NCBI GenBank assembly: GCA_029392475.1
Contig: CP113940.1
Location: forward strand, 1,054,001-1,118,000
DNA length: 64,000 nt
Origin: Streptococcaceae bacterium ESL0687
GTDB taxonomy: Bacteria; Bacillota; Bacilli; Lactobacillales; Streptococcaceae
Direction: 5' to 3'
Both the position numbers and the translations under genes were made by a program. A model generated the notes under the pieces. The model did no database searches. It was not told the origin of the DNA and saw nothing but the letters and a program-made list of their open reading frames with translations. Each line of letters starts with the position of its first letter. The first letter of the stretch is position 1. Shown one piece after another: positions 20,388 to 22,021 of the stretch.

Positions 20388-20984
20388 TTAAAGGAGTTTT
20401 TGCAACCACTCAAGACCTGATGTCCATGCGTAGCTGTAAATACCCACACCAAATATTTTACCTATTAAAATTGATTTAATAAAAAACTTATAGGTCATTC
20501 TGGTCTGACTAGCAATTAAAACCAAAACATCGTCAGGTGCCAAGGGAGCAAAGATAGCCCAAAAGAAGAACTTATCAAATTTTTCTCCCTGGTCAACCTT
20601 AGATACATATTTATTATAGGTTTTATCTGAGACAAAGGTCTGAACAAAGGGCTTACCAAACTCCCGTCCTAGATAAAACAAGATGATACTTCCAATGACT
20701 ATTCCCAGGTAATTGTAGAAAAAACCTTGAATAGGACCATAAATTAAGACAGCAGAGGCACAAAGGATACCTGAAGGTAGAAAGGACACCACCACTTGGA
20801 TGATTTGCAGGCCAATTATTAACAGAGCCCCTAAAAAGGGATGGTCGTTAGCTGTTGACTTAATAATGTTATCGCTATTGAAGATGCCCAGCCTATAGAG
20901 ATAATAACCCAGAAGAAGTGAGCCTAAGATAGCTACAATTGAAATTACCTTGACAACATGTTGCCTGTATTCTACACTTTTCAA
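20388..20984 (-). CDS. TVP38/TMEM64 (DedA-like, VTT domain) membrane protein
   Basis: A 198-residue membrane protein with a VTT domain: FLPSGILCASAVLIYGP and GIVIGSIILFYLGREFGKP match the family core, with four to five predicted helices. The bacterial role is uncertain; relatives act in lipid scrambling or undecaprenyl-phosphate transport. The longest frame begins with a TTG at 20996 that forms part of GGAGG itself; TTG 20984, 5 nt after that GGAGG, is the likelier start. It lies 18 nt behind the S1-domain gene and is probably cotranscribed. Confidence 0.8.
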   Translation of the reverse strand: MKSVEYRQHVVKVISIVAILGSLLLGYYLYRLGIFNSDNIIKSTANDHPFLGALLIIGLQIIQVVVSFLPSGILCASAVLIYGPIQGFFYNYLGIVIGSIILFYLGREFGKPFVQTFVSDKTYNKYVSKVDQGEKFDKFFFWAIFAPLAPDDVLVLIASQTRMTYKFFIKSILIGKIFGVGIYSYAWTSGLEWLQKLL

Positions 20985-21002
20985 ACTTTCCTCCAAATTC
21001 TC

Positions 21003-21383
21003 TTATTGATGATTCACCTTACCCTGACCCTTTAAATATTCTGTGTTCTCTTCAACCCACTTATCAAGTTGATTGGCTAGACTTGTAAAACCAGGTTGAT
21101 TGTGCTTTTGCTTGTATCTTCTTTTCTTTTTATTGTGGTGCAACTGGGGCTTCTCCTCTAAGGTCCTAAGGGATAAGCTAACTTTTCCTGTATACTCATC
21201 AATATCAATAATCTGTGCCTTCACCTCCTGGCCAAGAGTCACTGTATCCATGATATTTTTTGTATAGCCCGACTTAATTTCTGAAATATGAATTAGGCCG
21301 TGGCAGTTATTTGAAAACTTTACAAAGGCACCATAGGTTTGAATCCCAGTAATTGTAGCCTCAACTACATCACCTATCTTTAG
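21003..21383 (-). CDS. S1-domain RNA-binding protein (CvfD/YugI-like), apparently expressed by -1 frameshift from the cyclophilin gene
   Basis: Read from the first post-shift codon (CTA, 21383) this gives 126 residues: [19 protein letters not shown] opens a full S1 fold, GLIHISEI and [12 protein letters not shown] follow, then a basic linker ([13 protein letters not shown]) and a helical tail, as in CvfD/YugI. That family's proteins begin MKIGD; here the Met position is CTA and no ATG, GTG, TTG or CTG exists between the domain and the upstream in-frame TGA. ATG 21251 would delete half of the fold. The frame is reached by a -1 shift on A-AAA-AAC at the cyclophilin stop. Alternatives: pseudogene, non-canonical start, or sequencing error in the A run. 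Confidence 0.6.
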
Positions 21384-22021
21384 TTTTTTTTTACTTTTGA
21401 GTTGTCGATGAATTTTCCGTCAGCATCGTTAACGATTTCAATTTTGTTTATAACTACATCATCAACTGGCTTATCTTGGAAACCTGTTGGAACACTTGCA
21501 ATCTTATCAAGAGTCTTATAAGAAGCTTCGTCATATAGGTGACCAAAAACTGTGTGACGGCCATCTAGGTGAGGTGTTCCTCCGCCAGTATAAAGTTCTG
21601 CAATTTCTTCAGGCCATCCACCATTAACAAGAACATCTTTAGAATAAGCCATGTGTTCATTTTGAACGATAAAGAACTGGCTGCCATTTGTGTTTGGTCC
21701 AGCATTGGCCATTGAAAGGGCACCGCGGACATTAAAGACCTTATTTGAAAACTCATCTTCAAATTTAGCTCCGTAAATGCTTTCTCCACCCATACCTGTA
21801 CCAGTTGGGTCCCCACCTTGAATCATGAAGTCAGAAATGATGCGGTGGAAAATGATTCCGTCATAATATCCTTCTTTTGCTAGCTCAACAAAGTTTTTAA
21901 CTGTTTTTGGTGCAAGATCTGTAAATAGTTTTACCTTCATGTCACCTTGATTTGTTTTAATAATTGCGATTTGTCCAGGTGCATTTTGAATATCAACCTG
22001 TGGATAATTTGTATTTGTCAT
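21380..22021 (-). CDS. Cyclophilin-type peptidyl-prolyl cis-trans isomerase
   Basis: A 213-residue cyclophilin without signal peptide, so cytoplasmic. Conserved elements are [19 protein letters not shown], the GSQFFI strand and FGHLYD. It catalyses proline isomerisation in protein folding. It begins 12 nt after the Cof phosphatase gene; in many streptococci these two domains are one bifunctional polypeptide, whereas here they are separate. The 3' end contains the slippery A run leading into the S1 frame. AAGGA precedes ATG 22021. Confidence 0.93.
21383..21389 (-). promoter_or_regulatory. Candidate -1 frameshift / slippage site A-AAA-AAC
   Basis: On the minus strand the last codons of the cyclophilin are AAA-AAC followed by TAA; with the preceding A they form the canonical X-XXY-YYZ heptamer. 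It lies inside nine consecutive A residues (21392-21384), which also favours polymerase slippage. A weak hairpin (TGTAG / CTACA) begins 13 nt downstream. Confidence 0.5.

Follow-up and report, generated by a model that had tools for sequence, protein, structure and literature searches.

A junction at which a cyclophilin gene meets a CvfD-type S1 gene in a run of nine A's was analysed in this work, and a conserved programmed frameshift at that run, with transcriptional slippage as its main route, probably fuses the two products throughout the genus Floricoccus. Judging from the comparison of genomes, the junction is real and conserved, and it is very probably expressed as a fusion. The DNA analysed, a stretch of 64 kb referred to here as the window, has a GC content of 39% and belongs to a genome available as a single contig of 1,465,505 bases, whose congeners F. 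tropicus DF1 and F. penangensis HibF3 assign it to Floricoccus (Streptococcaceae). Our sample of the genus comprised four genomes in two pairs, the window genome (G000) with its sister G003, and F. tropicus DF1 with F. penangensis HibF3. For G000 and G003, published work (PMC12157432) allows a guess at a bee-gut source.

Anatomy of the cyclophilin-S1 junction

The features of the junction are listed in Table 1. The cyclophilin gene has the 3' end GTA AAA AAA AAC TAA, and the S1 frame is entered at CTA AAG ATA GGT GAT (L-K-I-G-D), encodes a complete S1 domain and stops at 21003. An earlier note on this DNA had stated that the S1 frame holds no ATG, GTG, TTG or CTG between the domain and its upstream TGA, and this proved exact to the base: none of the four codons occurs from that TGA to KIGD, the only near-cognates of table 11 in this interval being ATT, 30 nt upstream of CTA, and ATA at codon 3. 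The cyclophilin end AAA-AAC-TAA within nine A's, with A-AAA-AAC at the junction, was also found as the note had described it, together with a second -1 heptamer, A-AAA-AAA, in the zero frame of the same stretch. Translation likewise confirmed that a -1 shift creates one continuous cyclophilin-S1 protein of 339 residues, since one added A (an A10 transcript) leads to ...VKKKLKIGD....

Table 1. Features of the cyclophilin-S1 junction (positions in the window)
Feature	Position	Strand	Match or conservation
Cyclophilin-type peptidyl-prolyl isomerase ORF, zero-frame product, 213 aa	22021..21380	-	PF00160, E 9.5e-49
A9 slippery run, proposed frameshift site, in cyclophilin frame	21392..21384	-	Identical in 4/4 Floricoccus genomes
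CTAA: cyclophilin stop TAA (21382..21380) overlaps first S1-frame codon CTA; C = 21383	21383..21380	-	
CvfD/GSP13-type S1 RNA-binding region, 126 aa, -1 frame, without start codon	21383..21003	-	NF040579, PF00575
TGA closing S1 frame, 12 codons upstream of CTA	21422..21420	-	

The upstream ORF matched the cyclophilin model PF00160 with 166.1 bits, against a gathering score of 21.7. The S1 part reached 144.9 bits with NF040579 (CvfD/GSP13), whose curated cut-off is 117, and an E value of 1.2e-17 with PF00575, the Pfam match spanning residues 8-81 of the ORF in the -1 frame; matches to PRK07252 and PRK08059, two equivalog models, scored below the respective cut-offs. According to the available part of a review, the CvfD protein of S. 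pneumoniae binds RNA and has a part in both Mn/Zn homeostasis and virulence in that species (PMC9334652). The Floricoccus S1 shares with the CvfD/GSP13 regulators its sequence family and its place behind cyclophilin, as seen in relatives, but it has no start codon of its own, which would be the usual state, and it is predicted to exist only fused to cyclophilin. CvfD matches at an E value of 1e-25 or below numbered one per genome in all four Floricoccus genomes; the fusion would therefore be the one CvfD of the genus. The S1 stop is followed directly, at 20388-20996 of the minus strand, by an ORF that by eye resembles DedA/SNARE-associated proteins and whose first listed start is TTG.

Conservation of the A9 run and avoidance of such runs elsewhere

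The A9, the CTAA, the S1 domain in the -1 frame and the missing S1 start are common to the four Floricoccus genomes: ATG, GTG, TTG and CTG are absent ahead of S1 in every one of them, and the S1 frame is closed 6-14 codons upstream. A comparison of the junction across relatives had been proposed in the earlier note, and the phase obtained was not random, being constant in four of four. The motif BA9CTAA was searched in the same genomes and has exactly one copy in each, always at the cyclophilin-S1 junction. S1 identity amounts to 76-79% between the pairs and 91-94% within them, and cyclophilin dS to 1.29-1.47 and 0.32-0.64, respectively; synonymous sites between the two pairs are, as estimated, near saturation. 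The residue ahead of KKN changes from V to L between genomes and the flanks vary, while the run stays constant. Among codons whose amino acid is invariant in the four genomes, 70 of 174 in cyclophilin and 19 of 71 in S1 (first 100 codons) are identical at the DNA level. The final C of the heptamer is silent in both frames (AAC/AAT; CTA/TTA), yet it is C in all four genomes, and AAT accounts for 71% of the Asn codons of the window. From the codon usage of the window, the rough chance of A-AAA-AAA-AAC surviving in one independent lineage is 0.02-0.04. Since four genomes in two pairs offer few independent tests, the conservation of the run is support and not proof. For the S1 part, dN ranges from 0.03 to 0.18 across the four genomes, dS was not computable (-1) between pairs, and neither a stop nor an indel was found inside the domain in any of the four; by these estimates, the S1 part is under purifying selection.

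The junction A9 is the sole A9/T9 run in the window, where dinucleotide shuffles led to an expectation of 13.86. In the 56 CDS of the window, one A or T run of at least nine was observed against 4.99 expected under synonymous randomisation (7 of 500 randomisations as low, 0.014); for the A-run part alone the values are 1 and 2.86, and avoidance inside the window is therefore moderate. Runs of at least six are not avoided in these CDS (158 observed, 131 expected). At the genome scale, A/T runs of at least nine numbered 20 in the window genome, 16 in G003, 34 in F. tropicus and 48 in F. penangensis (118 in total), and those inside ORFs of at least 80 aa, some of which may be spurious, numbered 7, 8, 18 and 13, respectively. 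The 7 of 20 in the window genome compare with about 114 expected by extrapolation from the window. A9/T9 runs are under-represented in the coding sequence of this genome; replication slippage may likewise cause A9 avoidance, as the available part of PMC1088944 indicates.

A frameshift signature, defined as an ORF that ends at the run, an open next frame and no start before the run, was found among the 118 runs only at the cyclophilin-S1 junction, in each of the four genomes. The other frameshift candidates at runs of at least nine A's all have a start codon upstream of the run, apart from a second reading of the same junction in G003. Counterparts of runs were compared by blastn among loci holding at least nine A's, a procedure in which diverged counterparts may be missed, and two of the 20 runs of the window genome had an A/T counterpart of at least nine in all three other species, namely the cyclophilin-S1 A9, whose counterparts were exact, and a T run that belongs to an intrinsic terminator. 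The former is the sole protein-coding run among the 20 that is present in all four species. Within the close pairs, counterparts were found for 7 of the 20 runs of the window genome in G003 and for 10 of the 48 runs of F. penangensis in F. tropicus, so that conservation inside a close pair means little. A chance origin of the A9 was ruled out by the shuffles, by the single copy of BA9CTAA per genome and by the counterparts in four species.

The terminator, which has a T9-T10 tail and lies between rsmE-like and relA-like genes (names given by eye), occurs in all four Floricoccus genomes (L154, L174, L211, L266). Other A9/T9 runs of the window genome lie in ordinary genes that by eye are LicD-, RibF-, RNase HIII- and PDZ/Lon-type protease-like (L155, L166, L167, L169), and the LicD-like gene is the only one of these four whose run was found also in G003.

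Proposed routes to a fused product

We hypothesize that, in a fraction of transcripts, the A9 causes RNA polymerase to slip. A transcript that keeps nine A's would give the free cyclophilin of 213 aa (...VKKN) and one with ten A's the fusion of 339 aa (...VKKK-LKIGD...), while transcripts with eight or eleven A's would end a few codons later and give a cyclophilin with a slightly altered tail; some -1 ribosomal slippage at the same A run may possibly be added. The genus's only CvfD would thus be made in an amount that is a fixed fraction of cyclophilin. That the cell makes two products, cyclophilin alone and a fusion, had been put forward in the earlier note, and the phase, the A9 and the missing start, shared by four of four genomes, lend this view comparative support. 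One inserted A would give a plain fusion, yet none of the four Floricoccus genomes has it, which suggests that free cyclophilin is also needed. Transcriptional slippage fits best with a run of exactly nine A's, with the genome-wide avoidance of A9 and with the lack of a conserved SD-like element and of a consistent stem-loop. In E. coli, transcription insertions climb exponentially with run length, up to a maximum of 9, according to the available part of PMC5574713. Against slippage, the same part of that source reports no frame restored by transcription error in Buchnera, and in the available text of PMC6260861 slippage by the RNA polymerase of E. coli requires long A/T tracts and is greater on T runs.

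The same fusion could arise on the ribosome instead, by -1 frameshifting at A-AAA-AAA or A-AAA-AAC, a route that we rank second and consider rather unlikely. Both heptamers lie in the zero frame in the X_XXZ_ZZN pattern of stimulated frameshifting (dnaX/IS type) and are kept in the four Floricoccus genomes, and the zero-frame stop follows the heptamer immediately. In the available part of PMC4066793, both motifs are among those above 0.10% without stimulators, and an IS cluster with A_AAA_AAC is named as a proven case without an established stimulator; the same text, however, terms A_AA.A_AA.C a low-efficiency motif in E. coli. The earlier description of A-AAA-AAC as a classical -1 signal therefore stands as to the presence of the heptamer, but not as to the mechanism, for which polymerase slippage is the better candidate given this low efficiency and the lack of consistent stimulators. 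An SD-like element (at least 4 nt, within 30 nt upstream) is absent in three of the four species, the exception being a GGAG 22 nt away in F. tropicus, and the downstream pseudoknot-free folds have z-scores of -1.4 to 1.3 barring one F. penangensis window with z -3.3. Moreover, the conserved run is nine A's long, and a single heptamer would require fewer. The E. coli dnaX gene, with its -1 ribosomal frameshift, likewise has an A-run heptamer, a -1 phase and two products (the last predicted in Floricoccus), but at the Floricoccus junction neither a conserved upstream SD nor a consistent downstream stem-loop was found. It is this lack of a conserved SD-like element and of a consistent fold that favours transcriptional over ribosomal slippage.

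Separate synthesis of S1, by re-initiation after the cyclophilin stop at a non-canonical start (ATA/ATT at codon 3, or CTA), appears improbable. The CTAA does sit where two Streptococcus loci have ATGA, an overlap typical of coupled translation, and codon 3 of the S1 frame is ATA or ATT in all four genomes, but the near-cognate differs between the pairs, no SD lies ahead of it, in contrast to the GAGG-type SD sequences before S1 in Streptococcus-like loci, and ATG, one base change away, is absent in all four while the A9 is kept; re-initiation would also leave the conservation of the A9 and the in-frame fusions elsewhere unexplained. An internal start at the ATG of codon 45, which is kept in the four genomes, was set aside by reasoning, as a protein begun there would lack more than half of the S1 domain. 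Phase-variable loci typically have a homopolymer where two frames meet, and replication slippage between A9 (off) and A10 (fused) could switch the fusion at the DNA level; the equal run length in all four assemblies and the housekeeping nature of both modules make this very improbable. Still less probable is an under-counted run, with ten true A's and a plain fusion as in Lactovum: long homopolymers are error-prone, but nine A's were found in all four assemblies, among them those of DF1 and HibF3, which we take to be the strains of the first genomes of their species. Those first genomes of F. tropicus and F. penangensis were sequenced on Illumina (PMC10367601). The least probable reading of all, a decaying S1 pseudogene that has lost its start and is unexpressed, would account for the missing start codon and conflicts with the low dN of S1 together with high dS, with a score over the CvfD cut-off and with the intact domain in four genomes.

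Relatives, known systems and significance

Among 80 related loci, only two lacked ATG, GTG and TTG before S1, both from Floricoccus, and four were in-frame cyclophilin-S1 fusions, with proteins of 334-349 aa in Lactovum miscens and three Streptococcaceae MAGs (L093, L060, L081, L085). In the Lactovum genus, cyclophilin-S1 frames of 334-357 codons are open in five of five genomes, and open frames above 300 were confined to this genus among the rows listed. Between the last cyclophilin strand and KIGD, the linker as counted by eye has 21 residues in the window genome and 20-37 in the L. miscens and MAG fusions. S1 starts at a separate ATG near the cyclophilin stop in most Lactococcus loci; the ATGA overlap of the two Streptococcus loci (L098, L110) has a -1 geometry like that of the Floricoccus CTAA, and in the Streptococcus-like L023 and L027 (G006, G033) the stop adjoins the start as TAATATG. 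The cyclophilin ORF of L023 and L027 has 466-474 codons, which by length only is consistent with a Cof-cyclophilin fusion. The earlier remark that Cof and cyclophilin are fused in relatives thus holds for Streptococcus-like ones as far as ORF length goes, but the more telling relatives are L. miscens and the MAGs, where cyclophilin and S1 share one frame. In a cyclophilin+S1 tree of 21 rows, the Lactovum/MAG fusions lie away from Floricoccus, and an AU test against one clade gave p 0.028, the group having been named after the tree was seen. The Lactovum-genus and Floricoccus fusions probably arose separately; accordingly, the Lactovum fusion shows that a fusion can work, not common descent. 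The stop/start overlap phased at -1, from ATGA to CTAA, may have served in evolution as an intermediate between coupled translation and frameshift fusion. A structure prediction for the L. miscens fusion (alignment of four sequences) had a mean pLDDT of 45 and was left unused in the conclusions, and a plasmid search gave no match.

Genes with A9 slippage described by Baranov et al. (2005), in the available part of PMC1088944, are IS orfA/orfB and S. aureus mapW, as well as T. thermophilus dnaX, where slippage at nine A's yields about half of the product, and Shigella mxiE; of the seven conserved cases, six come from IS elements and mapW is the non-IS one. As described there, these genes have overlapping ORFs, a conserved nine-base run in the overlap and A9/T9-avoiding genomes, as does the Floricoccus junction. 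The features used in that study recur here: overlapping ORFs with nine A's conserved in non-identical homologues (four of four Floricoccus genomes), under-representation of coding A9/T9 (1 against 4.99, 0.014; genome-wide 7 against about 114) and homologues of the fused product encoded as one ORF elsewhere (L. miscens, the three MAGs and all five genomes of the Lactovum genus). The Floricoccus case differs in joining two separate housekeeping genes, the second without a start, and in that its slippage is predicted from sequence. Ancient homopolymer frameshifts in Blochmannia and Buchnera were reportedly described by Tamas in 2008 and Wernegreen in 2010. In the available part of PMC4389277, endosymbiont genes frameshifted at homopolymers were counted as intact, since polymerase slippage may correct them. 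Blochmannia and Buchnera represent correction within single genes in endosymbionts of about 27-30% GC, whereas the Floricoccus case would be a fusion of two genes, in a window of 39% GC. In C. rodentium tssM, a transcriptional frameshift at A11 gives a short and a long product at 20-25%, as the available text of PMC4256274 states. That gene likewise has a poly-A run with none of the usual ribosomal signals close by and a short and a long product (predicted in Floricoccus), but it is one gene with an early stop and a longer run, whereas two genes would be joined in Floricoccus.

The fusion would probably combine RNA or ribosome binding of the CvfD type with an attached peptidyl-prolyl isomerase, as family knowledge suggests, and the attachment could place folding activity close to RNA or ribosomes. 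Rather doubtful, and offered here as speculation, is the wider view that, across the genus, a programmed slippage site has taken the place of a start codon in a global RNA-binding regulator; all CvfD of Floricoccus would then be tethered to cyclophilin as a possibly ribosome-directed folding factor, at a dose set by polymerase or ribosome slippage that could vary with growth state or temperature. The principle of slippage is known, while the cyclophilin-S1 case and this pairing appear to be new. Among the literature matches listed, no title or abstract start named a cyclophilin-S1 frameshift or the in-frame cyclophilin-S1 fusions of Lactovum and the MAGs, and the terms "cyclophilin" and "S1 domain" have no occurrence in the available text of PMC3711429 or in the first 300,000 characters of PMC5009743. 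Few conserved cases of transcriptional slippage lie outside mobile elements, and the junction, if the proposed slippage is true, would provide a clean example from lactic acid bacteria that can be cultivated. The joined genes are separate in most relatives seen and form one plain ORF in others, and they form a natural experiment in which to ask why a partial fusion persists in a lineage although a single added A would complete it. Automated gene calling would probably shorten the S1 protein or label it as a pseudogene.

Side observations were made on CvfD in other genomes. In genus g3, whose genomes are small (0.9-1.3 Mb, some incomplete), five of five (G005, G014, G021, G027, G032) have no CvfD match at an E value of 1e-20 or below, and the same holds for G223. 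The S1 protein of L035 (G024, genus g8) has about 25 extra residues inserted ahead of KGLIHISE, an insertion that G010 and G029 may share, as their matches start late.
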